64,000 bases of DNA from Arenibacter echinorum. Lineage in GTDB: Bacteria > Bacteroidota > Bacteroidia > Flavobacteriales > Flavobacteriaceae. The stretch spans positions 310,001-374,000 of the forward strand of contig NZ_QLLN01000005.1 in assembly GCF_003259375.1 (NCBI RefSeq), written 5' to 3'. A program made the position numbers and the translations under genes. Position 1 is the stretch's first letter; each line of letters starts with the position of its first letter. Below, one piece after another: positions 3,648-27,890 of the stretch. The notes under the pieces are model-generated. The model was given only the letters and a program-made list of their open reading frames with translations, was not told the origin of the DNA and searched no databases.

Positions 3648-3692
3648 TTCCCCTATTTTCGACATTTGTATAACACCCAAAAATCAATTATC

Positions 3693-6516: not shown

Positions 6517-6528
6517 CACCATGTCAAT

Positions 6529-7437: not shown

Positions 7438-7448
7438 AGAAACAAACA

Positions 7449-8243: not shown

Positions 8244-8311
8244 TGGCACGGCAACGTTTTACCATGCTTTATCCTGCAATTCCCAATATTGGCATTTAAC
8301 TAATTTTAAAC

Positions 8312-9670
8312 ATGAACTTTTCAACTGTAATTTCTAAATCGTTTCGCACAGACATCCTCATTATTGGAAGTGGCAGCGCCGGTGCTACCGCTGCTATTGC
8401 TGCATCAAATGGGAGGTATAAAGTAACCCTTGTGGAACGTTATGGTTTTCCGGGTGGCACCTCAACCCAAATGCTGGACACTTTTTACGGTTTTTTCACT
8501 CCATCGGAATCGCCTAGAAAAATTGTAGGGGGAATTCCTGATAAAATCGTGAATGAATTGGATAGATCGGGCAATATTTTTTTACGTCCCAATACCTACG
8601 GAGCGGGTACTGGAGTAAATTATAACCCTGAAAAACTAAAACTGGTTTGGGAACAACTTTTGATAAAAAGTGGTATTCAATTATTATATCACTCCACCCT
8701 AGTGGGAGTGGAAAGTACAGGAGAAACATCGACCTGCATATTCTTCAATAAGGGCACGGGCTTTTTTTCCATTACTGCAAACCGGGTAATAGATGCTTCT
8801 GGCGATGCTGATTATTGCCATTTGGCAGATATACCCTTTGAACGTGCCGGGGAGAAGGAATCCGCCCAAAGTATGACCACCACCTTCCGTATGGCCAATG
8901 TGGAACAACAAGAGTATGAGTCGGCAGGAGGAAAAAGAATGTTAAAAGAAAAGATGGCAGAAGCTTATGAAAAAGGAACTTATGCCCTTCCGCGCAAAGA
9001 GGGATCCGCACATGAAATGTGCCAGCCCAAATGCATTTCTACAGTGGCGGTAAAAGTAGTGGACCTGGATCCGCTGGACGTAGAAGGTATTACAAAGGCG
9101 GAAATTGAAGGGCGCCGGCAAGCCTTTATTTTTGAAGATTTTTTCAGGGCAGAGATAGCTGGATATAAAAATTCAAAGATTATTGGGCTCTCCCATCAAA
9201 TTGGTGTCCGGGAAACTCGAAGGGTTTTTGGGGAATACCGTCTTACAAAAGAGGATTGTATAAGTGCCAAAACCTTCGAAGACCAAATTTTTCTTTGTGG
9301 CGCACCCATTGAAGATCATCGAAAATCAGACGAAGGAGAATCCGAAACCTTTTGGCAATATGTTCCCAACGGGGGAGCCTACGGTGTGCCATACGGCACT
9401 ATTGTACCCAAGGAAAGTCTAAACACTTGGGTAGTAGGCCGTTGCTTCTCTGCAACACATGACGCCCATGCCTCCTGCCGCTCTATGGCACAGACAATGA
9501 GTATGGGGCAGGCGGCTGGCCTGGCCGCTATAATCTCTATGGATACCGATCAGAACGCCAAAAACATCGATATTAACAAACTACAGGATTCTTTAATACA
9601 AATTGGGGCCATTTTAAGAATGCCCGAGAAAGTTGCGGATACCTCTAGGTACGGATGGAAAAACAATTAA
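8312..9670 (+). CDS. FAD-dependent oxidoreductase
   Basis: A flavoprotein of 452 aa with the dinucleotide-binding motif G-S-G-S-A-G at residues 19-24, followed by the long helix and E-R-Y-G-F-P-G-G-T, where the acidic residue contacts FAD ribose. Near the C-terminus G-R-C-F-S-A-T-H-D-A-H-A-S-C-R and M-S-M-G-Q-A-A-G-L-A-A form the usual second FAD contact. This is the FAD-dependent group often found in sugar and aromatic catabolic clusters of Bacteroidota and Planctomycetes. There is no signal peptide, so it acts in the cytoplasm. It ends at the codon just before the next gene. Probably oxidises a hydroxyl of the same carbohydrate handled by the neighbours. Confidence 0.88.
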   Translation: MNFSTVISKSFRTDILIIGSGSAGATAAIAASNGRYKVTLVERYGFPGGTSTQMLDTFYGFFTPSESPRKIVGGIPDKIVNELDRSGNIFLRPNTYGAGTGVNYNPEKLKLVWEQLLIKSGIQLLYHSTLVGVESTGETSTCIFFNKGTGFFSITANRVIDASGDADYCHLADIPFERAGEKESAQSMTTTFRMANVEQQEYESAGGKRMLKEKMAEAYEKGTYALPRKEGSAHEMCQPKCISTVAVKVVDLDPLDVEGITKAEIEGRRQAFIFEDFFRAEIAGYKNSKIIGLSHQIGVRETRRVFGEYRLTKEDCISAKTFEDQIFLCGAPIEDHRKSDEGESETFWQYVPNGGAYGVPYGTIVPKESLNTWVVGRCFSATHDAHASCRSMAQTMSMGQAAGLAAIISMDTDQNAKNIDINKLQDSLIQIGAILRMPEKVADTSRYGWKNN

Positions 9671-9675
9671 CAATT

Positions 9676-10635
9676 ATGTCTCAAGAATTTTTTAGAACAG
9701 TTTTGGGCGATAAGCCAACTTCGGAAATGGGACTCACCTATTCCCATGAACATATCATTATAGAGGATAGTTATGTAACAGCTGCCCATCCTGAATTTTT
9801 ACTCAACGATGTACATAAAATTACCGAGGAGCTTAAGAGCTTTTATAGGGCGGGAGGCAGAACAGTAGTAGACACCATGCCGTCCAATTGCGGCCGTAAT
9901 ATTTTAAAATCGGTTGAGGTAAGTCAAAGCAGTGGTGTCAATATAATTGTCCCTACGGGAATCCATTTGGAAATTTATTACCCGGAAAATCACTGGAGAT
10001 ATCAGTATTCCGAAGATCAAATGACCGAACTTTTTATAGACGATATTGAAAAAGGTATTGATCAATTTGATTATTCCGGACCATTTGTAAAAAGGACCCA
10101 ATATAAGGCAGGTCTCATTAAATTGGCTACCGGGGATGGTCCGATAACTCCCCATCAGGAAAAAATTTTCAGGGCTGTGGTGAATGCACATTTGGAAACT
10201 GGAGCTCCAATATTAACACACACCAATTTTGGAAAACAGGCCTTGGAACAAGCGAAACTGTTCAAAAAATTGGGGGCAAATCTACAACATGTGGTGCTTT
10301 CCCATGTGGACCGGGCCAAAGAGCTAAATTATAACATGGCGGTACTTGATATGGGAGTTCGGTTGGAATACGACAGTGCTTTTCGCTGGAAAGAACAAGA
10401 GCCCAATTATACTCTAAATCTTTTGGAAAATCTTCTCCCCAAATACCCAGATCAAATTACCTTGGGAATGGATATGGCAAAAAATGCATATTGGAAAAGT
10501 TATGGAGGTAGTCCTGGATTAAATTATCTTATAGAAACCATTCCCCAATTCTTAAAATCAAAAGGGCTGGAAGAGCATTATAAAAAAGTGTTTTTTGACA
10601 ATCCGAAAAGATTATATGCCTTTTCCAAATCTTAA
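9676..10635 (+). CDS. Phosphotriesterase-family amidohydrolase, likely sugar lactonase
   Basis: A TIM-barrel metalloenzyme of the phosphotriesterase homology group; several characterised relatives are sugar or phospho-sugar lactonases. Y-S-H-E-H near residue 24 gives the first H-x-H metal pair; F-V-K-R-T-Q-Y-K-A-G-L-I-K-L-A contains the bridging-lysine region; L-T-H-T-N-F-G, L-S-H-V-D-R and L-G-M-D-M-A give the remaining His, His and Asp ligands. The second ATG at 9676 is preferred because the family starts with F-x-R-T-V-L-G-D; the ATG at 9655 would overlap the FAD gene by 16 bp and is also possible. It is the last gene of the operon and fits a lactone formed by an upstream dehydrogenase. 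Confidence 0.88.
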   Translation: MSQEFFRTVLGDKPTSEMGLTYSHEHIIIEDSYVTAAHPEFLLNDVHKITEELKSFYRAGGRTVVDTMPSNCGRNILKSVEVSQSSGVNIIVPTGIHLEIYYPENHWRYQYSEDQMTELFIDDIEKGIDQFDYSGPFVKRTQYKAGLIKLATGDGPITPHQEKIFRAVVNAHLETGAPILTHTNFGKQALEQAKLFKKLGANLQHVVLSHVDRAKELNYNMAVLDMGVRLEYDSAFRWKEQEPNYTLNLLENLLPKYPDQITLGMDMAKNAYWKSYGGSPGLNYLIETIPQFLKSKGLEEHYKKVFFDNPKRLYAFSKS

Positions 10636-10656
10636 GCCAAACTAACAATGGCCAAA

Positions 10657-11367
10657 CTACAAAAAGTAACTATTTCGAATAGGATACTCAGTAGTATTAC
10701 AATACAAATCACCATATAAATTAAGGTTGGGCCTACTGGTTCTGAACCTAATTGATATATGTAAAATAGGAGCTCCAACTGCAATTCCCAATTTTTCGGC
10801 GTTATCGCCGCTGGCCGGTACTGACCTTAACTCCTGCTCCGCTCCCATAATCTCTATTAAATATTCCTGGCTAAGGGTTTTAAAAAAAGATCCCTCAACA
10901 AATTCCTCAGACCTTATAGGCTCCAAAGCGTTCAAGGCATACCAATTATTCTCCAAAACTACAGGTTTGTTGTCTATATAACGAACTCTTTGAAAATAGA
11001 CGCATTTAGAACTCTTTTCATCCTCGGATAACGGAAAACCAATTACCGGGTCCCATTCCACAATTTTAGGCTCCTCTGTCACCTTGGTCAATACCTTATA
11101 ATCCGTTGATCCGGAAAAGCCTTTGATAGACAAAAGTCCCAAATACTTTCCCCTCTCCAAGACCTTACTGCCCTTACCGTGTTCCTTGGCTATAAACCCT
11201 TCTTTCAATAGCTCGTCCAAGGCTTTTCTAACCGTAGTTCTAGTGGTACCAAATTGTACACAGAATTCATTTTCTGAAGGCAAATAACTATCGGGAGGAT
11301 ACTTTTGTGTCTGAATCCTTTTTTTTATATAGTCTTGAATCTGATGGTATTTCTTAATCTTTTTCAC
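10657..11367 (-). CDS. GntR family transcriptional regulator with UTRA domain
   Basis: A cytoplasmic DNA-binding repressor. Residues 7-70 form a GntR winged helix (L-P-S-E-N-E-F ... T-T-R-T-T-V-R-K-A-L-D-E-L near 25-50, then the wing G-K-G-S-K-V). Residues from about 90 to 236 fit a UTRA ligand-binding domain of the HutC subfamily, which senses small sugars or sugar phosphates. The gene is convergent with the six-gene operon and divergent from the heme dehydrogenase. A TTGT-N4-ACAA palindrome 93 bp upstream of its start suggests autoregulation. The ligand is probably an intermediate of the operon. Confidence 0.93.
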   Translation of the reverse strand: MKKIKKYHQIQDYIKKRIQTQKYPPDSYLPSENEFCVQFGTTRTTVRKALDELLKEGFIAKEHGKGSKVLERGKYLGLLSIKGFSGSTDYKVLTKVTEEPKIVEWDPVIGFPLSEDEKSSKCVYFQRVRYIDNKPVVLENNWYALNALEPIRSEEFVEGSFFKTLSQEYLIEIMGAEQELRSVPASGDNAEKLGIAVGAPILHISIRFRTSRPNLNLYGDLYCNTTEYPIRNSYFL

Positions 11368-11459
11368 CTACAAAATTTAAGTATCTAGGTCTAATTTACA
11401 TTATCTTATAATCAATATCCAAGATTATTAAATGAATTTACTTTTAAATAAACCCTCAC

Positions 11460-11475
11460 TATTGTCTATACAAGT
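11460..11475. promoter_or_regulatory. Candidate GntR operator between gntR-type gene and heme dehydrogenase
   Basis: TATTGTCTATACAAGT matches the perfect palindrome at 4189 in 11 of 16 positions and keeps TTGT-N4-ACAA symmetry. It lies in the divergent promoter region, about 90 bp before the repressor gene. Weaker than the other two sites. Confidence 0.4.
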
Positions 11476-11784
11476 TAATTTTGTCGTTTAATTTACCGCC
11501 CTAGGTAAGAATTAAGAACAGACAATTGCAGCAACTTTTTTAAACAATACTTTATAACAAAACATCATCTTACATTAAACTTTTTTCACTATCTGGTAAA
11601 CCTGCACACATATTATTGATTAGTAGATTTTTACCCTATTAAATATTAGGTTTACACAGTAGAATCGACTTCATTTTACGACCTTCCACCGGCTTATTCC
11701 AGATACACAAATCCGCCACAAGTGGGGTTCACATTCCAACTCCCAATTTTTGAAAGAAAACAGTCATTTATATAAAATTAAATT

Positions 11785-11806
11785 TTAACTTGTATGCACA
11801 TGTTAA
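11785..11806. promoter_or_regulatory. Candidate GntR operator just upstream of the heme dehydrogenase
   Basis: An imperfect palindrome with 5-bp outer arms TTAAC / GTTAA and core ACTTGTATGCACATGT at 11788-11803, matching the 4189 palindrome in 13 of 16 positions. It ends 19 bp before the ATG at 11826, a natural repressor position, and argues against a start at 11790, which would fall inside it. Confidence 0.5.
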
Positions 11807-11825
11807 GGATAATAATTTAATAAGT

Positions 11826-14741
11826 ATGGTGTTTATTAAAAAAATTGGAAGGAAGTTGACAAGTATAGGAGTTGTTGCCATGGCCTGCTCATTTATTTGT
11901 TGTGAGGACTCCAGAAGGGCGGAATATGAAACCCCTAAACTCAATTTCCAAACCACCATGTCAAATGACTTTAATGTCCCGGAAGGATGGGAAGTAAACC
12001 TATGGGCAGAATCTCCTGCCTTATTCAACCCAACAAATATGGATGTGGACTCAAAGGGAAGGATTTGGGTTACCGAAGCTGTCAACTACAGGGATTTCAA
12101 CAACGATCCCAAACATCATCTAAATTTCGATAAAGGGGACCGAGTAGTGATACTGGAGGATACTGATGGAGACGGAATTAGCGACACCTCCAAAGTATTT
12201 ATCCAGGATAAAGATCTGGTTGCACCCTTGGGCATTGCAGTAGTGGGGAACAAGGTTTTTGTATCCTGCGCGCCCACCTTGTTTGTCTATACTGATGAAG
12301 ATGGCGATGACGTACCCGACAAAAAGGAAGCTTTTCTTACAGGGTTTGGAGGCTTTGATCACGACCACAGCCTACATTCGCTAGTAGTAGGCCCTGATGG
12401 AAAATGGTATTTCAATACGGGGAATGCCGGACCGCACCGTGTAACTGACAAAGCTGGTTGGCAGCTCCGCTCAGGAAGCGTTTACACGGGTGGAACCCCA
12501 TACAACGATAAAAATGAACCGGCACAAGTTAGTGACGACGGGCGTATTTGGGTCGGTGGCCTGGCCCTAAGAATGAACAATGACGGCACTGGCCTTGAGG
12601 TGGTAGGTCACAATTTTCGAAACTCCTACGAGGTTGCACTGGACTCATATGGAAATATGTGGCAAAACGACAACGATGATCAAGTGGTAACCTGTAGGGT
12701 AAGTTGGCTTATGGAAGGTGGCAACGCGGGATATTTCAATGCCAACGGCAAACGTACATGGCAGGCCGATCGTAAACCTGGGCAGGATATTTTCACAGCC
12801 CATTGGCACCAGGACGACCCAGGGGTTATGCCGGCTGGAGACAACACTGGAGCAGGATCACCTACAGGTGTGGTCGTTTACGAAGGGGACGCCTTTGGCC
12901 CGGAATATCGTGGAATGCTCCTAAGTGCCGATGCCGGACGCAACGTAATATTTGCCTACCAGCCATCTCCGAATGGAGCGGGATTTGATTTAAAAAGGCG
13001 GGATTTGATTACCTCAACCCAAGAATCCACAGAAGGATATATATGGAACGATATCGATGAGGATAAACGCAAATGGTTTAGGCCAAGCGATGTTACCGTT
13101 GGAACCGATGGTGCTATTTACATATCCGATTGGTATGATCCAGTAGTAGGGGGCCACCAGATGATGGACACCTTAGGCTATGGAAGAATCTATAGAATTA
13201 GCCCTAAAGGAAAAAATCTTACCATCCCAAAAATAGACCTAAGCACCATAGAAGGCCAAGTTGCAGCTCTTCTTAATCCAGCTATAAATGTTCGAAATCA
13301 GGGATTTGAAAAATTACTTGAGCAAGGTGAACAGGTTTTTGAGGAGGTCAAGAAAATATTGGATTCAGACAATCCCTATCATCAATCACGAGCCATCTGG
13401 TTGTTGTCCAAACTTGGCAACGAAGGAAAAGCCATTGTAAAAAACGTATTAAAAAGCGAGCCGGACCCCCGATTAAGGATTGTGGCTTACAGAGCACTGA
13501 AAGATGATGCTGAATCCTTTTTAAAATATGCCACTATTGCGGTTAATGACCCTTCGCCCCAAGTGAGAAGAGAGGTGGCCATTTCCCTTCGAGACACACC
13601 TTGGGAAGAAAGCAGTGCACTTATCAAGGAATTATTTAAAGAATATAACGACCATGATCCCTGGTTTTTGGAAGCCTTTGGAATGGCTATGGACGGCAAG
13701 GAAGAATTGGCCTATGCCGAATTGCTTTCCAATCAGCACGAGGATCCTTCAAATTGGTCAGATTCTTTTGCCTCCTTAGTATGGCGAATACATCCCAAAT
13801 CTGCCATCAAAGCATTAAAAGAAAGGGCGCTAACAGAAAGTTTATCCCCAAATCTTAAAAAACAAGCGGTAGATGCCCTGGCATTTATTAATGAAACAGA
13901 GGCGGTCAAGGCTATGCTGGCCATAAAAAAATCCAGTACGGACAAATCGGTAAAGGAAACATGCCAATGGTGGCTGGACTTCAGAAAAAGTAACGACTGG
14001 TATGCCCTGTGGGATTGGGAAGCAGAAAACGGGGAAGAATTCAGTGTTCCTGACAATATTGCCAAACTCAATGAAACACTTTTAAACCAGGACACCTCTA
14101 CAAAAAAAAGGATCGAGGTAGGGAAAGAAATGGCAGGAAGCTTGATAGGTGGACGCCTCTTAATTAGTTTAGCCGCCAACGATCAGCTTTCCAATGAAGT
14201 TATTAGCGGAATATCCGAGGTTATTTTTAACAATCCCGAATTGGAAATCCGGACCTTAGCCAGTGAACATTTTAAAAAATCCGGGGAAAAGCAAATGGCT
14301 ATTCCCTCCATCTTAAAATTGACAGGGGAAAGCAGTAAAGGTGAAAGTGTATTTCTATCAAAATGTACTACTTGTCATAAAAACGGAACTATGGGCAACG
14401 ATATAGGTCCAGACCTATCCTCGATCGGGGAGAAATTCGATAAGACTGCCATTTTGGATGCCATTATTCATCCGAATGCGTCCATTGTATTTGGATATGA
14501 ACCGGTTATGATAAAAACTAAAAGTGGTCAGGCCTTTTTCGGTTTTCTTCTATCCGAGGGCGAAACCACAGTGTTGAAGGACATGACCGGAAAACAGATT
14601 GTGATTGCACCAGATGAAATAGATAGCAAGGAAAAAATGAAAACGGGCATTATGCCCAATGCAACATCCCTAGGTCTTACGGAACAAGACCTGGCCAATC
14701 TATCTTCCTACCTGTTAACGCTAAAAAATAGTACGCTTTAA
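11826..14741 (+). CDS. PVC-type heme-binding dehydrogenase with HEAT-like repeats, 971 aa
   Basis: A large exported redox protein. An N-terminal signal segment contains cysteines (A-M-A-C-S-F-I-C-C), so a lipoprotein is likely. Residues ~40-450 form a beta-propeller dehydrogenase domain with repeated W-V-T-E and L-E-D-T-D-G-D-G type Ca-loop motifs, as in the membrane-bound dehydrogenases common in Planctomycetes and Verrucomicrobia. About 460-800 hold helical HEAT-like repeats. The C-terminus is a cytochrome-c-like domain with C-T-T-C-H at about residue 847, and Met in the G-I-M-P-N loop is a possible sixth ligand. The upstream operator links it to the GntR regulon. It may oxidise a sugar in the periplasm; substrate and electron acceptor are not evident. 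A TIM-barrel gene follows after 28 bp. Confidence 0.88.
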   Translation: MVFIKKIGRKLTSIGVVAMACSFICCEDSRRAEYETPKLNFQTTMSNDFNVPEGWEVNLWAESPALFNPTNMDVDSKGRIWVTEAVNYRDFNNDPKHHLNFDKGDRVVILEDTDGDGISDTSKVFIQDKDLVAPLGIAVVGNKVFVSCAPTLFVYTDEDGDDVPDKKEAFLTGFGGFDHDHSLHSLVVGPDGKWYFNTGNAGPHRVTDKAGWQLRSGSVYTGGTPYNDKNEPAQVSDDGRIWVGGLALRMNNDGTGLEVVGHNFRNSYEVALDSYGNMWQNDNDDQVVTCRVSWLMEGGNAGYFNANGKRTWQADRKPGQDIFTAHWHQDDPGVMPAGDNTGAGSPTGVVVYEGDAFGPEYRGMLLSADAGRNVIFAYQPSPNGAGFDLKRRDLITSTQESTEGYIWNDIDEDKRKWFRPSDVTVGTDGAIYISDWYDPVVGGHQMMDTLGYGRIYRISPKGKNLTIPKIDLSTIEGQVAALLNPAINVRNQGFEKLLEQGEQVFEEVKKILDSDNPYHQSRAIWLLSKLGNEGKAIVKNVLKSEPDPRLRIVAYRALKDDAESFLKYATIAVNDPSPQVRREVAISLRDTPWEESSALIKELFKEYNDHDPWFLEAFGMAMDGKEELAYAELLSNQHEDPSNWSDSFASLVWRIHPKSAIKALKERALTESLSPNLKKQAVDALAFINETEAVKAMLAIKKSSTDKSVKETCQWWLDFRKSNDWYALWDWEAENGEEFSVPDNIAKLNETLLNQDTSTKKRIEVGKEMAGSLIGGRLLISLAANDQLSNEVISGISEVIFNNPELEIRTLASEHFKKSGEKQMAIPSILKLTGESSKGESVFLSKCTTCHKNGTMGNDIGPDLSSIGEKFDKTAILDAIIHPNASIVFGYEPVMIKTKSGQAFFGFLLSEGETTVLKDMTGKQIVIAPDEIDSKEKMKTGIMPNATSLGLTEQDLANLSSYLLTLKNSTL

Positions 14742-14769
14742 ATTCTACAACCCATTAAAAATTGACATT

Positions 14770-15642
14770 ATGAGTGCTTCAATAACAAGAAGGGAAGTGT
14801 TAAAATCCTCCGCCGGCCTACTCGGTTTAAGTTTTTTGGGGGCTTACGAGGCTTTTGCCATGGACAAAAGTCTTGGATTTAAAATTGGCGCTTGCGATTG
14901 GTCTATCCAGAAAATGTCAGAAATTGATGCTATAAAAGTTGGTAAGAAAATTGGATTGGATGGGGTGCAGATTAGTTTGGGCACATTGGCCAACAATATG
15001 CACCTAAGGCAAACAAGCATTCAACAACAATACAAAAATGCCTGTTCGGAGTATGGTATGAGCATAGGAGGCATCGCCATTGGCGAAATGAACAACATTC
15101 CCTATAAATCGGACCCACGTGCCGAAATTTGGGTATCCGACAGTATAGATGTGGCCAAAAAAATGAATGTCAATGTTGTTCTATTGGCTTTCTTCCATAA
15201 TGGAGACCTTAAAAATGACATGGAAGGCACCCAGGCAACGATTCGAAGGCTAAAAAAAGTATCAAAAAAGGCAGAGGACAATGGTATCATCCTGGGTATA
15301 GAATCTTGGCTAAGTGCCGAAGAACATATGGAAATCATCAACGCCGTAGATTCGCCTAATATCCAAGTTTATTATGACGTAGCCAATTCAAACAAAATGG
15401 GGTACAATATTTACGACGAAATACGATGGCTGGGCAAAAAGCACATCTGTGAATTTCACGCCAAAGAGAACGGTTATTTATTAGGACAGGGCAGAATAGA
15501 TTTTGAAAAAGTAAAAAAAGCGATAGATGATATCGACTATGAAGGTTGGATACAGATAGAGGGTGCGGTTCCCGAAAACGCAGATATGTTTGATAGTTAT
15601 GTTTTGAACAATAAATACCTTAGGTCGGTTTTAAAAAGTTGA
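14770..15642 (+). CDS. Sugar phosphate isomerase/epimerase-like TIM barrel with Tat signal
   Basis: Xylose-isomerase-like TIM barrel of the AP endonuclease 2 fold. The N-terminus has a twin-arginine motif T-R-R-E-V-L-K (Arg7-Arg8) and a hydrophobic stretch ending A-F-A, so it is folded in the cytoplasm and exported. Metal-binding residues are visible in I-L-G-I-E-S-W (Glu), Y-Y-D-V-A-N-S (Asp), C-E-F-H-A-K-E (His) and I-Q-I-E-G (Glu). It is translationally linked to the heme dehydrogenase upstream. Exported members of this fold accompany Gfo/Idh-type enzymes in 3-keto-glycoside metabolism, which would fit a periplasmic oxidation followed by isomerisation or cleavage. That role is inference. 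Confidence 0.85.
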   Translation: MSASITRREVLKSSAGLLGLSFLGAYEAFAMDKSLGFKIGACDWSIQKMSEIDAIKVGKKIGLDGVQISLGTLANNMHLRQTSIQQQYKNACSEYGMSIGGIAIGEMNNIPYKSDPRAEIWVSDSIDVAKKMNVNVVLLAFFHNGDLKNDMEGTQATIRRLKKVSKKAEDNGIILGIESWLSAEEHMEIINAVDSPNIQVYYDVANSNKMGYNIYDEIRWLGKKHICEFHAKENGYLLGQGRIDFEKVKKAIDDIDYEGWIQIEGAVPENADMFDSYVLNNKYLRSVLKS

Positions 15643-15751
15643 ATCACGAGGACCTAGATCAAGGTATTAGGCAACTTACGAGCGACCATTAATCTAAAAT
15701 AAATCCCGTAGCTAGCATTACATGAAGCAATTGTTATACCCATCTTAACCC

Positions 15752-15779
15752 AAAAAAGGCCTCCAATCTCTTGAAAGCC
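15752..15779 (-). terminator. Intrinsic terminator of the former tRNA-Arg gene
   Basis: Read on the minus strand, a 7-bp stem with three G-U pairs (GGCTTTC / GGAGGCC) and an 8-nt loop is followed by six T. It starts 11 bp past the CCA end of the tRNA fragment, so it is the original host tRNA terminator left in place. This marks the left flank as host DNA. Confidence 0.65.
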
Positions 15780-15789
15780 CTGTGTTTAT

Positions 15790-15834
15790 TGGTGATGGCA
15801 CTAGGATTCGAACCTAGGACCGCCTGCTTAGAAG
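15790..15834 (-). other. tRNA-Arg(UCU) 3' fragment, probable attachment site of an integrative element
   Basis: On the minus strand this is an exact tRNA 3' part: anticodon loop CTTCTAA (anticodon TCT), 3' anticodon stem GCAGG, T arm CCTAG-GTTCGAAT-CCTAG, acceptor TGCCATC, discriminator A and encoded CCA. The 5' half is missing: the bases before the loop (GAGT) cannot pair with GCAGG and no D arm follows. The break falls at the anticodon loop, a usual crossover point for tyrosine recombinases. An integrase gene begins 170 bp away. An intact tRNA-Arg should lie at the other end of the element and is not in this window. Confidence 0.8.
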
Positions 15835-15923
15835 ACTCATATTCCATCCTACAAATGAATACAAAATACATCATATTATATTGATTTACAGCTATTTAAT
15901 TCAATTTCGATAAAATTGGATGT

Positions 15924-15972
15924 CATTTGATATCAAATGATATCAAAAAATAGTGAGCCTAAAGTGAGCCTT
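15924..15972. promoter_or_regulatory. Palindrome and direct repeats between att site and integrase
   Basis: Contains a perfect 16-bp palindrome CATTTGATATCAAATG (15924-15939), GATATCAAA repeated 10 bp apart (15929 and 15939), and AGTGAGCC repeated 11 bp apart (15952 and 15963). Such clusters between att core and integrase gene are typical of recombinase arm-binding or integrase control sites. Their role here is inferred from position. Confidence 0.45.
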
Positions 15973-16006
15973 GTTTTTTACTAACTTTAAGTAAAAGAAC
16001 AAGATT

Positions 16007-17263
16007 ATGGCCAAGGTAAGATTGATATTGGACACCAGAAAATCGGCAAAAAGTGCAGCCAACGGATTGTATCCCGTTGCCCTAAGATTGTTTCACCGTA
16101 AAACGAGGATCATACGCCTTCCCTATTTCAGCTCCCCCGCTGGATGGGACGACAAATATATGCGGATGAAAAAGTCGGCCTTTAAAAACAACCATATTGA
16201 TTGTGACAGGGCCAATGAAAAAATTTATGACAAACTACATACCGCCCATATGCTGATAGTAGAACTTGGGGACAGCATCAACTCGGTAGATGCGGATACG
16301 CTGGTAGGATATATACGCAAAGCATGGGACAAAAAAATGGACACCAAGATAAGGGACGAAGTGGACAACGGACTTACCCTGTCGCAATGGGGCAAAGTTA
16401 TCATCGATAGAAAATTAAAATCCAACAAACCCGGAACTGCGTCCTGGTATGCAGGGGCCATCAGATCCATTACCAAACTCAACGGGGGAAGGGACCTGCG
16501 GTTGAACGAGATTACCCTTACCCTACTGACCAATTTCCAGATCGAACACAAGGCCAAGAGCAGTTCAAAAAATGGCATTAGCTCCTATTTGAGGGCAGTT
16601 AGGGCCATTTATTACAGTGCCATCAAGGAGGATCAATTTTATCCCAAAAAAAACCCCTTCCTACACTTTAAAATTCCCACTTCCAGACGTACCAAAAAAA
16701 AGGCCATATCTAAAATGGACTTCATAAAGATCAGGGACGTTCACTACAAAGAAGGATCTCCAGTCTGGCATGCAAAGAATTATGCATTAGTGATGTTTAA
16801 CTGTAGGGGAATGAATTTCATAGATCTGGTAAAGCTTCAGATCAAGGACATAGTCAATGACCGCATATTCTACGGCCGTAGCAAGACAGGAGATCAGCTC
16901 TCCGTCCGAATTACGGAGGAACTACGGGAAATTTTGAATTTTTATATTGAAGGAAAATCAAAGGTTGATTATCTATTTCCTGCAAACTATGACGGCAGCA
17001 CAAGGCACTTTGAAAAATATAAAACCCAAAGAAGAAGGATGAACAGCCGTCTTAAGATCATTGCCAAGGATGCAGGTATCGAAGAACATTTTACCACTTA
17101 TACCATCCGTCATTCCTGGGCTACGATCGCCAAGTTTATGGGGATTTCGACAGAGGTTATCAGCGAAGGATTGGGCCACAACTCCTTAAAAACAACTCAG
17201 ATCTACCTAAAGAGTTTTACCAACCATGTTTTGGATGAGGCGAATGAGATGGTTGTTTCTTAG
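16007..17263 (+). CDS. Site-specific tyrosine recombinase (integrase)
   Basis: Catalyses integration and excision at the neighbouring tRNA-Arg site. The N-terminal ~100 residues form the Bacteroidota arm-binding domain (L-Y-P-V-A-L-R-L-F-H), 120-220 the SAM-like core-binding domain, and 235-418 the catalytic domain. Active-site residues appear as Arg267 (N-C-R-G-M-N-F), Lys293 (S-K-T-G), Arg368 (T-I-R-H-S-W-A-T), His391 (G-H-N-S-L) and Tyr400 (T-Q-I-Y-L). The usual His three residues before the second Arg is Tyr365, a common change in this group. Full length, no disruption, so it may be active. The gene faces into the presumed element. Confidence 0.95.
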   Translation: MAKVRLILDTRKSAKSAANGLYPVALRLFHRKTRIIRLPYFSSPAGWDDKYMRMKKSAFKNNHIDCDRANEKIYDKLHTAHMLIVELGDSINSVDADTLVGYIRKAWDKKMDTKIRDEVDNGLTLSQWGKVIIDRKLKSNKPGTASWYAGAIRSITKLNGGRDLRLNEITLTLLTNFQIEHKAKSSSKNGISSYLRAVRAIYYSAIKEDQFYPKKNPFLHFKIPTSRRTKKKAISKMDFIKIRDVHYKEGSPVWHAKNYALVMFNCRGMNFIDLVKLQIKDIVNDRIFYGRSKTGDQLSVRITEELREILNFYIEGKSKVDYLFPANYDGSTRHFEKYKTQRRRMNSRLKIIAKDAGIEEHFTTYTIRHSWATIAKFMGISTEVISEGLGHNSLKTTQIYLKSFTNHVLDEANEMVVS

Positions 17264-17646: not shown

Positions 17647-19422
17647 TTATATCGGTTTGGGGATTGTATTGGTTCTTTTAGCCCAATCATGCCATTTTTT
17701 CGATAACTCCTTGACAATTTCTGGGTATTGCTTTGCTAAGTCATGATTTTCCGTTCTGTCATTTTCCATGTCATATAATTCCCATTGATCAATGGGAAGT
17801 TCATTTACTCTTATATAATGCCCAGAGTGGTTATTGGCTTTGGATATCAATTTCCATTTTTGCTGCCTAATTGCTCTATTACCTTCATGTTCAAAATAAA
17901 TTGCCTCCCTTTCCAAAATTTGATTATTCAATAAAACCGGGGTCAAACTCTTGCCCTCAATTGGTGATATTACATTTCCATCATAAACCTGAGGATATGA
18001 GGCTTCTGCGACATCAACACATGTCGCCATTATATCTATTAAATGTGAAGGTTGATGTGATATTTCTCCTTTAGACTTAATTTGAGATGGCCAATATGCA
18101 ATAAGTGGAGAAGAAATTCCTCCCTCGTTTACCCAATGCTTGTACTTTTTAAAGGGGGTGTTCGAAACATTTGCCCAAGTAGGGCCGTATGCATTGTACG
18201 TCTGATCTGATCCAGCCAATACCTTAATGCTTTGCATAACTACCGGGTAACCATCTCTTGTTATTTTTGGTACCATTTCCGTTTGAAGTTCATTTTTTAA
18301 CATAGGTTCGGTTGTGGGCTTGTCCGAAAGAATGTCTCGGTCTCCCCTTCCACTTACCCATTCCAATTCTTCAGCACAAGCACCATTGTCTTGAAGGAAC
18401 AGAATTAGGGTGTTTTCAATTTCACCAGTCTTTTCCAGTTCACTTATAATATTACCAATACCCTTGTCCATTCGCGTAACCATTGCTGCATAAACCTCCA
18501 TATTCCGGGCATGCCATGGCTTGTTTTGCACCGTGTCCCAATTGGCAATGGGTTTTGTTATATCCCAGTTATCTTTTAGGAGGCCCAATTGTTTTAATTT
18601 TTCAAATCGCTTAAGCCTAACAGAATCGAAACCTTTGTCGTATTTACCTTTGTACTGCTCAATCTCCTCTTCAGGAGCATGTAAGGGCCAATGAGCTGCC
18701 GTATATGCCACATACATAAAAAAAGGATCCTTAATGTCTTCAGTCTTATAGTCTTGAATATATTTTACAGCATTATCACTAATGGCATCTGTATAATAGA
18801 ATTGTTTGGGCTGGTAAATTGAATCATTTTCCGGGGTTATCAAAGAATTATTACGTGCTAGAGTATAAGGGTCCCAGAAACTTCCTGCGCCAAATATGGT
18901 GCCATAAAATTTATCAAAACCGCGTTGGCGAGGCCAATTGTACTTAAGTGAATCCACATCTTTCAAGTGTTTCGTCACGTGCCATTTCCCAGACATGTAG
19001 GTTTGGTAACCTGCAGACTTTAAAACTTCTGCAATGGTAACACTTTGATTATTCAAATCCCCTATATAACCTGGTTTACCTTCATCATCTGTCATCATCC
19101 CTATCCCAGTTTGTGCAGGATAAAGCCCAGTTAACAAAGATGCGCGTGTTGGACAACAACGGGAGGTGTTATAGAATTGGGAAAAACGTAGACCATTGGC
19201 TGCCAAATTATCAAGGTTAGGCGTTTTTATTTCTCCGCCATAGCAGCCAATATCTGAATACCCCATATCGTCTGCCATAATCAAAATGATATTGGGGCGA
19301 TTTTGCTCTTTCAACATACTAATGGTCTCTACTTTTTTAGACCATATAGTGTCACGAAGTCCAAATCCCAAGGCGAAAATGGCAATACTAGAAATTGCTA
19401 AAATTTTTATTTTATTTTTCAT
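17647..19422 (-). CDS. Arylsulfatase, S1_4-like, secreted
   Basis: An exported sulfatase of 591 aa. N-terminal signal anchor at residues 5-23, metal site M-A-D-D-M-G-Y-S-D near 49-57, and nucleophile motif C-C-P-T-R with Cys89 as the residue converted to formylglycine. The context N-T-S-R-C-C-P-T-R-A-S-L-L-T-G-L-Y-P and the length match arylsulfatase A-like family S1_4. F-L-Q-D-N-G-A-C and K-Y-K-H-W-V-N-E-G-G provide later active-site elements. It is the last of three leftward sulfatase genes. The subfamily call is from motif memory, so the substrate (aryl-type or glycan sulfate) is open. Confidence 0.92.
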   Translation of the reverse strand: MKNKIKILAISSIAIFALGFGLRDTIWSKKVETISMLKEQNRPNIILIMADDMGYSDIGCYGGEIKTPNLDNLAANGLRFSQFYNTSRCCPTRASLLTGLYPAQTGIGMMTDDEGKPGYIGDLNNQSVTIAEVLKSAGYQTYMSGKWHVTKHLKDVDSLKYNWPRQRGFDKFYGTIFGAGSFWDPYTLARNNSLITPENDSIYQPKQFYYTDAISDNAVKYIQDYKTEDIKDPFFMYVAYTAAHWPLHAPEEEIEQYKGKYDKGFDSVRLKRFEKLKQLGLLKDNWDITKPIANWDTVQNKPWHARNMEVYAAMVTRMDKGIGNIISELEKTGEIENTLILFLQDNGACAEELEWVSGRGDRDILSDKPTTEPMLKNELQTEMVPKITRDGYPVVMQSIKVLAGSDQTYNAYGPTWANVSNTPFKKYKHWVNEGGISSPLIAYWPSQIKSKGEISHQPSHLIDIMATCVDVAEASYPQVYDGNVISPIEGKSLTPVLLNNQILEREAIYFEHEGNRAIRQQKWKLISKANNHSGHYIRVNELPIDQWELYDMENDRTENHDLAKQYPEIVKELSKKWHDWAKRTNTIPKPI

Positions 19423-19583
19423 AAAACGTTAATTATTAAGGTAAACCCTTTTTATAGAAATTTGCAGACATTTAATTGGCTGTCCACAATGTTATATTCA
19501 ATATTTTGTAAACGAAAACCGGATAGTTCAATCTAACCTTAAATAAACTTAGAGATTAAATCAATTTAATAGACCACCAAGAT

Positions 19584-19739
19584 TCATGTCTTCACTATCT
19601 TTTCATAGGCTATCTGATACAAATCTCTTAAATCGCTAGTAGGGTTCTTAATCCGCATGATTTCCAAAAAAGCTAGTAGTTCTTCTCGTTTGTTGTGGTT
19701 GTGGGCATCGTATAAAATGTCTTCAATGGTATTACTCAT
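19584..19739 (-). CDS. Small conserved-looking protein, 51 aa
   Basis: The internal ATG at 19739 gives a compact acidic/helical protein M-S-N-T-I-E-D-I-L-Y-D-A-H-N-H-N-K-R-E ... Y-Q-I-A-Y-E-K-I-V-K-T. The N-terminal phrase T-I-E-D-I-L-x-x-A-H resembles small unannotated Flavobacteriia proteins I recall, but I cannot name a family. It lies between two sulfatase genes on the same strand and may be read with them. A longer start at 19784 adds 15 residues of poor coding character. The function is unknown. Confidence 0.5.
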   Translation of the reverse strand: MSNTIEDILYDAHNHNKREELLAFLEIMRIKNPTSDLRDLYQIAYEKIVKT

Positions 19740-19846
19740 AATCAAATTTTCTATTACTGGTTTCATTTTTAAATACATTAACATGGATAGGTCTTGCTGA
19801 AATACTGCCTATTCCTTTATGTATCAAAAATTTTGACATACGTTTT

Positions 19847-21489
19847 TCAATTTGGGATAAAGGAAACTTGAGCACTTGGTTGGTATCCAATCCTATGCGC
19901 AACGGATATGACACGCTCTCCCTGATTTATTGAAAAAGGTTTAGTATAAACCTCCCAAGAATTCAGTAAATTCTGATTCTCCTTTAAAATTTGATAACCA
20001 ATCGATGCTCCATCCGTATCACAACTAATTACGATCTTATCATTTATTTTTTCCATAACAGGTTCTTTCGTTATAGGCTGGATCCCCTCCGGCCATATAG
20101 AATCAACATATACATTTTCAGACATTAATCCCTTGTCGTCTATATCTGACATCCAGCGTTCACATTCCTCCCTTAACTCCTCCAGCTTGTTTTTATATTC
20201 AGGATTGTCGGCCAAATTATTTAATTCGTACGGATCATTCCACGTGTCAAATAATTCTTCAGGTGCTTTTTTATTCCTAAACCATAAAGCTTGGTTTCCA
20301 TCTAGCTCTCCATTATTCCGCATAAGCAGTAATTCTTGCATAATAGGCATTTGTTCTCGATAGGCTACGGGTAAGTAATAGCCTTGATCAATTCTGAAAT
20401 TTCTCAAATATTTATATCGATTGTCTCGAACTGCTCGGATCATATCATATCGCTCATCAAAACGATCTGCCGCACCATGCACATATTTTCTCATGTCCAT
20501 AGATTCAAATTCACCAGCAAAGGCTCTTCCATCCATATTCATAGGTGGATGTATTCCTGCCAAGGACATTAAAGTTGGCTTAAAATCAACAAAGCTTATC
20601 AAGCGATTATCTATCGTACCGCTATTCTTTTTGCCGGGATATCTTATAACTAAAGGCAATCTCATGCCGGAATCATACAAAAGTCGCTTTTGTCGAGGCA
20701 AGGGTCCGCCGTGGTCAGAAAACCAGAATATTATTGTATTTTCCAATAAACCGTCCTCTTCCAACTGGGCCAATATTTCACCAACCTGATGGTCCATTTC
20801 CTTTATATTGGAATACATCCGTCTGATATCGGTTCGGCCCACTTCATTATCTGGTAAATAAGGGGGGACAGGCACATCTAAATCTTCCTCGACCCAAAGT
20901 GAATCTTTGGCTTTAGCCCATATTTGTGATTCATGTGTAACCATTAGGTTGAATATCGAGAAGAATGGTTGGTTAGGTCCGCGGTTTCTCCAATGGGCCT
21001 TTTTACTACTTTCATCCCAGGCCGTTACAGGTGCTGTAAACTGATAATCCTCTTTACTGTTATTGGAACAATAATATCCTTCCAGTCTTAAATGTTCACT
21101 ATACATTTTAATATTGGGGGAGGCATTGCTTCATAGGGTTGAATTCCTTCTGGAAAGTATTTGCCATTTCCACTGTTTCTCATATGATGCGCACCGATAT
21201 GATTCTGGTACATTCCTGTGGCAATTGCCGCTCTACTGGGCGCACAAACACCTGATGGCGAATACACATTCGTATATCTGATACCTTCCGCAGCCAATCG
21301 GCTAATATTTGGCGTGACAACTGTTGAATCTCCAAATGAAGGAATTACCGGACTCAAATCTTCAGCCACTATCCAAAGTATATTGGGCCGCTTAGCAACT
21401 GTAAAGTTTTTTTCGCTATTTTCCTTTTTATGGGAATTACAACCAAATAAGCACAACAGCAATAATAAAGGGATGAGATGTTTTTTCAT
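19847..21489 (-). pseudogene. Sulfatase gene split by a single-base frameshift
   Basis: Two overlapping frames together encode one lipoprotein sulfatase of about 540 aa. The first (21489-21088, 133 aa) has lipobox L-F-G-C (Cys17), the metal site V-A-E-D-L near 41-45 and nucleophile motif C-A-P-S-R at Cys82, then ends after P-P-P-I-L-K-C-I-V-N-I. The second (21106-19847, 419 aa) starts M-Y-S-E-H-L-R-L-E-G-Y-Y-C-S-N-N-S-K and carries F-S-D-H-G-G-P-L-P-R-Q-K-R plus the C-terminal subdomain. Adding one C to the C5 run at 21116-21120 restores P-P-P-N-I-K-M-Y-S-E-H-L-R. Either a real inactivating mutation, a sequencing or assembly homopolymer error, or two separately translated pieces. Confidence 0.85.
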
Positions 21490-21501
21490 ATTAATCTTTA
21501 G

Positions 21502-21521
21502 AGGTAGTCTTAAAGCTACCT
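21502..21521 (-). promoter_or_regulatory. Hairpin in the leader of the split sulfatase
   Basis: AGGTAG (21502-21507) pairs with CTACCT (21516-21521), with extra CTT/AAG pairing inside. It lies 12 bp before the ATG on the minus strand, where it could limit translation or end transcripts from the sulfatase upstream. No U-tract follows. Confidence 0.3.
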
Positions 21522-21730
21522 ATTGTATTTATGTTTTTAATAGCCAGTAATACATCTTGGAAATTAAAATTCTGATCTATTTTTATTCCCTCAACTTTAC
21601 TATACCTATACTTCATTAATTTTTTTGTAGTATGGTCCCACAAATCCTTAGTTTCACTTCCTTATCACCATAGTTTTACTTCTTATTATAAAAAATTCAA
21701 AAACTGGCTAATATTATCCAATGGTATTTG

Positions 21731-23200
21731 TTATTCTGAAACTTTTGCTTGGTTTTTATGTAATAATACGGCCATTAAATTTCGAATACTTTTATATTCG
21801 GGCTTGTGGACTAAATTTTGAAATTCGTTTGGATCGTTATCATAATCATATAATTCCATCCCTGCATCCCCACCGTTCCACTCAGTATAGCGCCATTGTC
21901 TATATCGGACACTTCGTCCATCAATAGTTTCTGTAACCTCAGAAGAAGACATTGCACTGGGCCTTCGAAATACTTGTGTGTAAGCACAAGTATCCCAATC
22001 CAAGCTTGGTTCTTCTAGTATTTTCCGAAGACTTTTACCTTCAATATCTGAGGATACAGGGATTCCTGCCAAATCTGCAATGGTAGGATAAATGTCCAAC
22101 AACTCTACAATACTCTCTGTTATTCTATCTTGTTGCATACCAGGAGAAGAAATAATCAAAGGGGTTCTGGCTGCGTGCTCAAAGAGACTTTGTTTCATCC
22201 ACTGACCATGTTGGCCAACATTATACCCATGATCACTCCAAAAAACAATTATAGTGTTTTCACTTAGGCCGGTTTCATCTAAAGCATCCAAAAGTTTACC
22301 CACCTGTGCATCCATAAAGGATATTGAGGCATAGTAAGCCCTTAGTACTTCTTTGCGTTGCTGTACACTTAATCCAAAATGCATTTTTGCATTCCATTTT
22401 GCAGCTTCTGGTTTGTTGTCCCAGTCATCATCACGTTCCTCAGGCAGTCGTATTTTGTCAAGTGGGTAAAGATCAAAATATTTTTTAGGTGCTACATAAG
22501 GGGTATGTGGCCTAAAAAATCCAACAGCTAAAAAGAAGGGGTCATCTTTATGTTTTTTTATAATCTTAACTGCTTCATTAGCAACTTTCCCATCGGTTTG
22601 ATCATCATCCGAACCATTTGCCATCCAATAAGAAAGTGCGCTTCCCAAACCTCGATCAGGAGTATAATTAATAATATTATGTTCTTCTGTTTTATCTATA
22701 CCTATCGGGTTCACCCTATAGTTCCAGGAAACCGGATCATCTTGTCCATCCGTACCTATGTCATTCGGTACTCCATAATGAAATATTTTTCCTACTCTTG
22801 CCGAGAAATATCCATTATTTTTAAATAACTGAGGTAACGTTACCGCATCCGGCAGGTGTTTTCGAAACTCCGTTTTCAAATCTGTAACTTTTGTTTGATC
22901 TGGTCTTCGTCCCGTAAGTACAGAAGCCCTACTAGGTGAACACCATGGATATTGGTTGTAAGCCCTATCAAAACGAACTCCCCTATTTAACAATCTATTT
23001 AGGTTGGGAGTCTGAATAAAAGGAGAATCAAAAACTTCCATATCGTTGTTTAAGTCATCCGAAGCAATAAACAAAACATTCAATTTTTTTACTTCTTGGG
23101 CTTCTAATATTGTGAAACATCCAGCTAAGAATGTAATATAAATCACAAAGTATCTACCTAAAAAGCACTTGTTTGATTTTTTCAATTTTAAACTCTTCAT
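21731..23200 (-). CDS. Sulfatase, S1_7 / iduronate-2-sulfatase-like, secreted
   Basis: A 489-aa exported sulfatase. After a hydrophobic signal (residues ~16-34) comes L-F-I-A-S-D-D-L-N-N-D near 43-53, then nucleophile motif C-S-P-S-R at Cys87 in the context S-R-A-S-V-L-T-G-R-R-P-D, which is characteristic of the iduronate-2-sulfatase branch (S1_7). F-F-R-P-H-T-P-Y and F-W-S-D-H-G-Y-N-V-G-Q-H provide later active-site residues. It begins a leftward group of three sulfatases and would act on an exo or internal 2-O-sulfated uronic acid or similar sugar. Family placement is good; substrate is inferred. Confidence 0.93.
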   Translation of the reverse strand: MKSLKLKKSNKCFLGRYFVIYITFLAGCFTILEAQEVKKLNVLFIASDDLNNDMEVFDSPFIQTPNLNRLLNRGVRFDRAYNQYPWCSPSRASVLTGRRPDQTKVTDLKTEFRKHLPDAVTLPQLFKNNGYFSARVGKIFHYGVPNDIGTDGQDDPVSWNYRVNPIGIDKTEEHNIINYTPDRGLGSALSYWMANGSDDDQTDGKVANEAVKIIKKHKDDPFFLAVGFFRPHTPYVAPKKYFDLYPLDKIRLPEERDDDWDNKPEAAKWNAKMHFGLSVQQRKEVLRAYYASISFMDAQVGKLLDALDETGLSENTIIVFWSDHGYNVGQHGQWMKQSLFEHAARTPLIISSPGMQQDRITESIVELLDIYPTIADLAGIPVSSDIEGKSLRKILEEPSLDWDTCAYTQVFRRPSAMSSSEVTETIDGRSVRYRQWRYTEWNGGDAGMELYDYDNDPNEFQNLVHKPEYKSIRNLMAVLLHKNQAKVSE

Positions 23201-24019
23201 AATATTAATTGGTTTTCATTAAATCAAATTAACCTATTTTAAAGGTTATTAATTCACTCATTGGAATTTCATTATTTCTACATTATCGCAACAACATTTA
23301 TTTTTACTTTCTAGAATCAAAAAAATAATTGTCGCCCATTATTAGCTCAAATGAATGAACTTTTACAGCATTAAAAATTGTGTTAGGAATTAATACCAGG
23401 TCATTTTGTAAAATTATAAATCACAACACTACTTACAGGGATAAATGGGTGTAAGATAAGGTGATATGGATAAACTACAGAAAAAGCAAGAAACGCCCAA
23501 GACGACTTTCTTAAAGTGAATTATACCTCTTTATTCTTGGATACAGACTCAAAACTTACCAAAAACACTAAATTTTCCTGTGGCTCAATAAAGCCTTAAC
23601 TACCTCCATGTTACCAAACTCTAGGCTGCCTTTTTTATACTCAACAATGAGATATCTGTTTTATGCTCAAAAGAATTTAAATATACCTCCTAATTCTTCC
23701 TAAAGTAGTCAAAGTGCAAATAATACATTAAATCCAAATCTCCCTAACTAAGAACCATTCATCCCTAAGCTTTAGCTCCTAGGTTCATAACATTGTAGAT
23801 AGAAAATATTGAACTTTTAAAAGGCAAGAAGCCTGTATGGACAAATTCTCATTTATCGATTTAGTCGTCTTCCTTTTTATTTCTATGATTTGGGAGTAAC
23901 AACAATTACACCATTGAAATAGTGTGAGCTTATCTCGAAAAATGACTTTGCAAAAAAGAATCAGTTTATCACTTGGAAAATCTTGAAGATAATAAAGTAA
24001 CAACTAATTCAGCTTCATT
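23201..24019. other. Intergenic region between divergent sulfatase and sigma factor genes
   Basis: An 819-bp AT-rich stretch with no supported gene. Short frames on the minus strand lack any recognisable domain. It must carry the promoters for the leftward three-sulfatase group and the rightward sigma factor. No clear operator, hairpin or transposase remnant could be defined by eye. Confidence 0.45.
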
Positions 24020-24661
24020 ATGGATTTAAATCAAACGTCTCAGCAATACCAAACTCAGAGGGTCATGTGTAAACCCACTGCAATTGTAACTGACAAAAGC
24101 ATCCTATCTACTGACCTTGAACTTTGGAAAAATTTTCAAGGCGGTTGCGATTTAGCTTATGAAACCATCTACAGAAACTATTCAGTTTTATTATATGGTT
24201 TTGGGTTGAAATTAACAAATGACCATGAGTTAGTCAAAGATTGCATACACGATCTTTTTATAGGAATACGGAAGTCAAGGCAAAAGTTAGGGTCAGTAAA
24301 ATCTATAAAGGCATACCTTTTCACATCAATTAGAAGAATGTTGATTGCCGAATTGGTTAAAAAAAGAAAACATTATACAACCAATGCCGTTCCATTTACT
24401 CTAAAGCATTTACAAATTTCTTCCGTCGAAGAAAAATGGATTAAGAACGAAAATATTGTGGAACAGCAACGAAATCTAAAAACTGCCTTGAATAAGCTTT
24501 CCGATTGCCAGAAAGAAATAGTCTACTTAAAGTTCTACTCGCTATTGAGCTATCAAGAAATTTCTGAAGTTTTAGGTTTAAGTACGAAAGGAGCTTATAA
24601 GCTTATGGAGCGAACTATGTTTCAACTTAGGAAAAATATGAATTTTCATATAATAGCCTAA
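24020..24661 (+). CDS. Orphan ECF-type RNA polymerase sigma factor
   Basis: Directs RNA polymerase to a set of promoters. Region 2 spans residues ~45-115 (A-Y-E-T-I-Y-R-N-Y ... V-K-D-C-I-H-D-L-F ... I-K-A-Y-L-F-T-S-I-R-R), and region 4 about 150-205 (L-S-D-C-Q-K-E-I-V-Y-L-K-F ... S-Y-Q-E-I-S-E-V-L-G-L-S). No region 3 or 1.1, so the ECF subfamily is clear. In Bacteroidota such genes normally precede a FecR anti-sigma and a SusC with STN domain; here it stands alone on the opposite strand to the sulfatases, and the only anti-sigma-like protein is 9.8 kb away before SusC. It may still control locus A. Confidence 0.92.
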   Translation: MDLNQTSQQYQTQRVMCKPTAIVTDKSILSTDLELWKNFQGGCDLAYETIYRNYSVLLYGFGLKLTNDHELVKDCIHDLFIGIRKSRQKLGSVKSIKAYLFTSIRRMLIAELVKKRKHYTTNAVPFTLKHLQISSVEEKWIKNENIVEQQRNLKTALNKLSDCQKEIVYLKFYSLLSYQEISEVLGLSTKGAYKLMERTMFQLRKNMNFHIIA

Positions 24662-24670
24662 ATAACAAAC

Positions 24671-24781
24671 ATAGTGTAATACTTTACTTTAGGAAAACGG
24701 CTTTTAAAGGATATGCCTTACCCAAACTTTTTACGTCTAATAGCTTTAAACTAAAAAATTGAACGAAAGTTATTACACTAT
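24671..24781. repeat. Widely spaced 11-bp inverted repeat between convergent genes
   Basis: ATAGTGTAATA (24671-24681) is the exact reverse complement of TATTACACTAT (24771-24781), 89 bp apart, filling the space between the sigma factor and sulfatase stops. It may be a shared termination structure. The arms are AT-rich, so chance is not excluded. Confidence 0.3.
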
Positions 24782-24791
24782 CTATGTTCAC

Positions 24792-26222: not shown

Positions 26223-26290
26223 TGGTTTTTTAATATTTAAGTTTCTCGAAGTTTGATTAAACTCTCCTCCTCACAGAGATGTATTAATAA

Positions 26291-27826: not shown

Positions 27827-27890
27827 TAATTTAATAAGGCATAGTAATTACTAAAAACCTCTTAGGATTTATAATCGTTTTCAAATAAAA

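Follow-up and report, generated by a model that had tools for sequence, protein, structure and literature searches.

Tandem tRNA islands in Arenibacter echinorum: a sulfatase-rich PUL on a candidate island with mixed tRNA-Arg and tRNA-Val ends

Background

Mobile PULs of the Bacteroidota bring SusC/SusD pairs, hydrolases, sulfatases and a regulator together in one cluster. The candidate island of Arenibacter echinorum described here, island B, is clustered in the same way. In contrast to those mobile PULs, both B and its tandem neighbour, island C, lack a PF03432 relaxase, the single match in a search of the whole genome lying outside them at C1:606970; as far as this family shows, neither has the relaxase expected of an ICE or IME, and there is no sign of self-transfer of the PF03432 kind.

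The Islander paper (PMC4383910) gives 2083 islands and 125 tandem arrays of two or more, treats exchange at the anticodon loop as one class, and states that integrase targets have switched often. Like the islands described there, B and C combine an intact tRNA gene, a 3' fragment, an integrase and a tandem arrangement. Unlike them, B has at its outer end a fragment from a tRNA other than its target, and the Islander-style pairing of a tRNA gene with its own fragments would miss this end because the fragment is non-cognate. Plasmids of the archaeal pT26-2 type (PMC8371274) resemble the present case in having related integrases beside different tRNA genes and tandem integration, and anticodon-loop exchange is discussed for them; they differ in being archaeal and in having a split-gene integrase in one class, whereas here the integrase gene is intact and the host belongs to the Flavobacteriaceae. 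Tycheposons, as cited in PMC10872708, are cargo islands of 4-200 kb, and the comparison with B covers the large cargo, the tyrosine recombinase and the tRNA gene. We found no report of such an island in Arenibacter in the literature searched, which included few subscription papers.

Sequences and comparisons

The window is the whole stretch of 64,000 nucleotides that was analysed, C5:310001-374000 of the A. echinorum genome (G000; a 24-contig draft of 5.19-Mb); positions without a contig name are window positions. The congeners named below are A. troitsensis DSM 19835 (G013), A. palladensis DSM 17539 (G014), A. algicola E3M18 (G016), A. hampyeongensis JCM 17788 (G004), Arenibacter sp. F20364 (G017) and A. 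certesii (G007). The left host flank and the tRNA-Val flank were sought in 17 congeners, and the stretches round the site were compared for 11. Scanning the genome contigs for the integrase family gave 57 loci, or 53 once the partial matches L186, L192, L195 and L197 had been left out; for the integrase tree (50 rows) seven sequences shorter than 380 aa were dropped, and the integrases of the window, of C1 and of G003 and the second one of C5 were added. The protein family scan of island B covered the larger ORFs.

The integration site

The outer end of island B and its host flank contain the following features:

1-15636, no strand: host backbone left of the tRNA-Val(UAC) site, from congener matches; about 3992-15300 is missing in some congeners
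15637-15727, no strand: about 90 bp from the host edge to the arm-like stub, matching only the window's own copies among the loci compared
15728-15751, minus strand: degenerate type-3 arm repeat (local score 14), the putative stub of a deleted element, N
15752-15780, minus strand: terminator-like hairpin with a T-run, by eye; the same kind adjoins both the Arg and the Val cores
15790-15834, minus strand: 3' half of a tRNA-Arg(UCU) with CCA, a non-cognate core at the outer end of B, from sequence and genome comparison
15952-15969, plus strand: type-1 arm repeats between the core and int1 (AGTGAGCCTAAAGTGAGC); the same 18 bases lie at C5:394476, at B's inner end
16007-17263, plus strand: int1, a tyrosine integrase of 418 aa (PF00589, E=1.7e-18; PF13102, E=3e-11)

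An earlier, sequence-only reading had noticed a tRNA-Arg(UCU) 3' half with CCA and a terminator, cut at the anticodon loop and about 170 bp from an intact tyrosine recombinase, and all of this was borne out. The minus strand of 15790-15834 runs from CTTCTAA (anticodon TCT) through the T-arm to CACCA, so that the half starts at the first base of the anticodon loop and extends to the CCA; 43 bp of it are identical to the 3' half of the intact tRNA-Arg(tct) gene at C1:679260-679334, which has CTT in place of the CCA. Its 24-bp centre has one match in the window and none in 100 shuffles. The distance from the half to the start of int1 is 172 bp, and the best solved relative of int1 is the XerC-like 4a8e (E=3.5e-9). 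Neither ARAGORN nor Rfam at gathering thresholds called an RNA gene in the window, as expected because the tRNA-Arg is a half.

The same reading was right that the terminator side is host DNA, since the host match ends at 15636-15640 in six congeners (G002, G004, G005, G009, G011 and G014). From 3992 onward the window is collinear with the host in G002, G004, G005, G011, G014 and G017, in the last as far as 10781. An extra island at 3992-15636, a stretch that G016 lacks, was considered and rejected, as this stretch is collinear with the host flank in other congeners.

The reading had placed the integration in tRNA-Arg(UCU) and predicted a second copy of the 45-bp core to the right, and here it failed. 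There is no second copy on the contig at up to three mismatches, and C5:374001-554000 contains no tRNA-Arg, the single tRNA there being a tRNA-Val(tac) (512287-512362, minus strand). At the same threshold the genome has three copies of the Arg core: that of the window, that of the intact tRNA-Arg at C1:679260-679334, and a fragment at C1:707533-707577 adjoining an integrase 79% identical to int1. The gene at C1:679260, on another contig than the window, is the sole intact tRNA-Arg(UCU) found in the genome.

The site without the element, which the reading had proposed to seek in relatives, does occur in G013, and its tRNA is tRNA-Val, not tRNA-Arg. In that genome the homologue of window position 3866 ends at G013:C5:465977 and the homologue of C5:512221 begins at 466075; an intact tRNA-Val(tac) lies at 466141-466216, at most 0.2 kb from the end of the host-flank homologue. 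The corresponding spacing from host flank to tRNA-Val in A. echinorum is 198 kb, of which 186.5 kb are the two islands. The same host edge is followed in G014:C23 by a tRNA-Val fragment and a related integrase, and in G016:C28 a flank ending at window 3991 is followed by the same two features; G002, G004, G005 and G011 have other DNA after the host edge. Because the site is empty in G013, is followed by a Val fragment and an integrase in G014 and G016, and has a Val fragment at B's inner end, genome comparison indicates that the native integration site of the array is tRNA-Val(UAC).

Tandem islands B and C

Between C5:313k and 514k the minus strand has three fully paired T-arms, those of the Arg half (325812), of a Val half (394581) and of the intact tRNA-Val (512307), against a mean of 0.35 and at most 1 in 20 mono-nucleotide shuffles. 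Two plus-strand matches, at 328161 inside a sulfatase ORF and at 489566, have no tRNA context by eye. The order of the array is host flank, B, C, intact tRNA-Val. Island B extends from window position 15835 to about C5:394557 (84557 in window numbering), so that the element does run rightwards and, at 68.7 kb, exceeds the minimum of 48 kb given by the sequence-only reading. Island C continues from about C5:394557 to 512.3k (118 kb). Its outer Val fragment agrees with the intact tRNA-Val in 84 of 86 bases through the terminator, and its integrase (int2, C5:394780-396033) is 60% identical to int1. At its inner end B has a tRNA-Val half and type-1 arms, and type-1 arms also lie at the int1 end; B itself thus reads as a tRNA-Val island.

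Set beside the features by which Islander islands are recognised, each island contains its own integrase gene, has a length between 2 and 200 kb (68.7 and 118 kb) and occupies a site that is empty in a relative (tRNA-Val of G013). C is bounded by the intact tRNA-Val and cognate Val fragments, and B by half of a tRNA-Val on the inner side and half of a tRNA-Arg on the outer side. Each member of the tandem array has its own integrase and tRNA fragment, int1 with the non-cognate Arg half in B and int2 with Val in C.

Blocks of island C are 92.6-99.5% identical to G004, and C is 99.85% identical to 20 kb of G017:C102; the left host blocks of G004 and G017 are 76-86% identical. Since the identity of C is far above that of host DNA, the comparison indicates that island C has moved between species. 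The start of C (L008, G000:C5:394001-414000) encodes a P-type ATPase with an HMA domain, a multicopper oxidase, a CusB-like fusion protein and DUF3347 proteins.

For B, three blocks amounting to 53 of its 68.7 kb were searched. In 299 sampled genomes of the family (two candidates scored per genome) the sulfatase block gave partial matches alone, the best at 72-79% in other genera, and in the 17 congeners its best matches were 80% over 1.9 kb and 86% over 464 bp; two further blocks, searched at E up to 1e-60, gave at best 66-67%. As the blocks searched have no near copy, the view that B is a single transferable unit is plausible and not more.

Cargo of island B

Island B carries two SusCD pairs, nine PF00884 sulfatase loci (seven in the window and two beyond), a GH43 and a regulator. 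Within the window its cargo is arranged as follows:

17647-29384, minus strand: six sulfatase loci (PF00884)
29475-34248, minus strand: SusD/SusC pair 1 (family scan)
36141-41188, plus strand: DUF6797/cytochrome protein and the seventh sulfatase (family scan)
41899-56327, minus strand: GntP permease, SusD/SusC pair 2 (43681-48257), sugar transporter, IlvD/Edd dehydratase, SDR, amidohydrolase, and SnoaL-like and acetolactate-decarboxylase-family proteins (family scan)
56423-64000, minus strand: 6hze-like protein (56423-58624), TIM-barrel protein (58858-59685), 889-aa protein (59891-62560) and the C-terminus of the regulator from 63007 onward (family and structure searches)

Family scans of B confirm that both SusC/SusD loci and the regulator lie on the element, as the sequence-only reading had it. 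The reading also assigned seven of eight sulfatases to it; the window has seven, all to the right of the integrase, and a scan of 11 proteins to the left gave no PF00884 match. The sulfatase at 19847-21489 is split by a frame break, its two ORFs covering the two ends of PF00884 but not the central part of the profile, and is either a pseudogene or a sequence error.

The regulator (1419 aa) extends past the end of the window and has response-regulator and AraC-type domains, with a kinase part recognised by eye. With SusC/SusD pairs, carbohydrate-active genes and this regulator, B has the components by which a PUL is defined. Genes of a sugar-acid type are the GntP permease, the IlvD/Edd dehydratase, the SDR, the amidohydrolase and the sugar transporter. 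The product of 56423-58624 has no Pfam match and resembles the GH138 enzyme BPa0997 (6hze, E=3.4e-14). The 889-aa protein matches no Pfam family, and sequence searches gave no relative of solved structure; it could possibly be an unassigned enzyme of the glycan cluster. A repeat of about 214 bp is found inside B at 54142-54356 and 62988-63201 (88% identical).

The integrase family and its arm repeats

In 48 of the 53 family loci the strand opposite the integrase carries a paired T-arm whose T-loop lies 181-212 bp upstream of the ATG (195 bp in the window), and the pairing of the Arg half with int1 is therefore more than chance. Of the other five loci, four have a degraded Arg core by eye and L162 has none. 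The cores beside family integrases belong to Arg(UCU), Val(UAC), Ala(GGC), Asp(GUC) and Met(CAU), with anticodons read by eye, and one is unassigned. When tRNA labels (six, 'none' included) are placed on the integrase tree they change 14 times, against a shuffled mean of 25.1 and with no value as low in 200 shuffles. Close integrases also adjoin different tRNAs, as do the tree sisters L142 (Val) and L143 (Arg). The tree sister of int1 is L141, beside an Arg core. In sequence int1 is nearest to the integrase of G014:C6, which is broken (two pieces, 97% and 89%) and lies in an Arg island. A SusC or sulfatase match was found downstream of the integrase in four of the 48 loci with at least 1.5 kb downstream (eight window proteins as queries, up to 8 kb seen), and thus PUL cargo is not usual near integrases of this family. 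In plasmid and phage records all relatives are under 60% identity.

The 11-bp arm repeats differ from one integrase type to another. Measured from the T-loop, most lie 147-160 bp away towards the integrase and 66-88 bp away in the opposite direction. We have labelled these type 1 (GCTCACTTT), type 2 (TTTGCACTCAA) and type 3 (GGTACAAC/GGTTAAAC). On the flank that lies past the Arg half, type 3 is the sole type to score, in a comparison of flanks that contains no type-3 flank as a positive control. The score of the stub was reached in 0 of 2000 and 0 of 500 shuffles, with the motif chosen after the flank had been seen, and types 1 and 2 did not score above shuffles there; by our own count its distance from the core is shorter by about 11 bases than that of other type-3 arms. 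Four element flanks scored highest for their own type (1, 1, 1 and 2) and two host flanks for none. There were weaker cross-scores for type 2 on the inner flank of island C (5/500) and type 1 on the tRNA-Arg flank (5/500), and weak scores for types 1 (3/500) and 2 (23/500) on the G016 flank. Type-3 arms adjoin Arg cores in G006:C22 and in A. certesii (G007:C58, L170). A distant integrase (32%) at L027 (G000:C4:381918-382832), with type-3 arms and a tRNA-Asp(GUC) 3' half, marks a further tRNA island.

Arg arrays and traffic between loci

The intact tRNA-Arg and its 3' fragment on C1 bound a 28-kb region (C1:679260-707577, L004-L005), which is probably composite because type-2 arms lie beside the tRNA and a type-1 integrase at the other end. 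This region has a SusC-like gene and ORFs resembling aromatic-compound catabolism by eye, and near C1:679.6k there is the relic of a T-arm from another tRNA. Beyond it, an 11.8-kb segment with SusC/SusD-like ORFs, segF (C1:708310-720121, L005-L006), is 92% identical to G004:C22:351438-363250. Because segF adjoins the Arg backbone in A. echinorum and, in G004, the host edge of the Val site, entire segments may pass from one of these loci to the other. Eight further islands could be read at both ends (the C1 region, island C, G014:C6, G011:C22, G004:C12, two in G004:C22 and G005:C12), and in each of them the two ends belong to one tRNA, so that mixed ends, one case in nine, are rare.

The rule of exchange at the anticodon loop was checked on one case. 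The Arg fragment of G014 has the allele and the downstream sequence of the intact tRNA-Arg of G016, and the intact tRNA of G014 has another allele, followed by element arms. Exchange at the tRNA 3' end, with an element-borne Arg core at the outer end, was dropped, as this fragment fits the anticodon-loop model; against dropping it, G002 and G009 have the other allele with the same downstream sequence. A repeat of 100-200 bp directly after tRNA-Arg, with a short copy of the tRNA 3' end at its own end (G016:C11:631880-632640, G014:C6 at 150.7k and G004:C12 at 148.5k), resembles insertions of small elements at the end of the tRNA.

Origin of the mixed ends

We lean, by a modest degree, towards a history in which B is a tRNA-Val(UAC) island in tandem with C and its Arg half was left by a later, mostly deleted element. 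A tyrosine integrase with its exchange point at the anticodon loop would have brought B into tRNA-Val(UAC), and the Val half of the host would at first have stood at the outer end of B, as it still does beside related islands in two congeners. Element N, with an Arg core and type-3 arms, would then have integrated into this displaced Val half, where no live tRNA was at stake, placing the Arg core beside int1. A later deletion reaching the host edge would have removed the Val half and most of N, so that the Arg half and a stub of about 100 bp remain. If so, the Arg half is second-hand and therefore no pointer to B's target. This is the simplest history that keeps the anticodon-loop rule. In its favour are the empty tRNA-Val site of G013, the Val halves with related integrases in G014 and G016, the three minus-strand T-arms, the type-1 arms at the two ends of B, the type-3 score past the Arg half, the type-3 arms beside Arg cores elsewhere and the close integrases that adjoin different tRNAs; counted against it are that N is itself postulated, that the stub is degenerate, that L141 and the G014:C6 integrase lie beside Arg cores, the position of segF and the rarity of mixed ends.

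Those two integrases instead favour the movement of B, or of its integrase end, from a tRNA-Arg array to the Val locus through recombination, homologous or illegitimate, between related islands, in which case the Arg core would come from an old Arg-array junction. The traffic seen in segF (92%, at the Arg locus here and the Val locus in G004) supports such a move, as does a recombination model of target switching for archaea (PMC8371274), and a reciprocal swap between the Arg and Val arrays, suggested by the position of segF, is kept among the rivals. However, since the arms at the two ends of B agree and the inner core is that of tRNA-Val, such a move takes at least two breakpoints; segF, at 92% against 76-84% for host DNA between the species, may have moved alone. 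We regard this translocation as rather unlikely. Gene conversion replacing the Val half with the Arg half is improbable: the core-terminator stretches of Arg and Val do resemble each other (about 75% over 85 bp), but they are short and divergent for homologous exchange, and the arm-like stub beyond the terminator would be left unexplained.

An assembly artefact at the core seems a shade more improbable still. The genome is a draft of 24 contigs with the 45-bp core present twice exactly, yet a swap at this repeat would still put an Arg core beside the Val backbone, and the two integrase regions are just 80% identical. Integration of B in tRNA-Arg(UCU) with an intact tRNA-Arg at its right end would account for the Arg half and the integrase, but given that neither core nor tRNA-Arg lies rightwards on the contig, that tRNA-Val is empty in G013 and that B's inner end has a Val half, it is very improbable.

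A more general idea, put forward tentatively and itself doubtful, is that displaced tRNA fragments at the outer ends of islands are safe landing pads for elements of other tRNAs, since an insertion there would harm no live tRNA, so that targets change stepwise, with B, Val at one end and Arg at the other, a caught intermediate.

Conclusions

The array is of a known kind, tandem tRNA islands; its cargo is unusual near this integrase family, and so are its mixed ends. A whole set for the utilisation of sulfated glycans sits on one island-like unit, beside a 118-kb island that has moved between species. The mixed Arg and Val ends of B serve as a warning that a tRNA fragment beside an integrase does not alone name the integration site. 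They also provide a concrete case for how integrases change targets, and if the idea of landing pads is true, mixed stacking would allow integrases to switch from one tRNA to another step by step.
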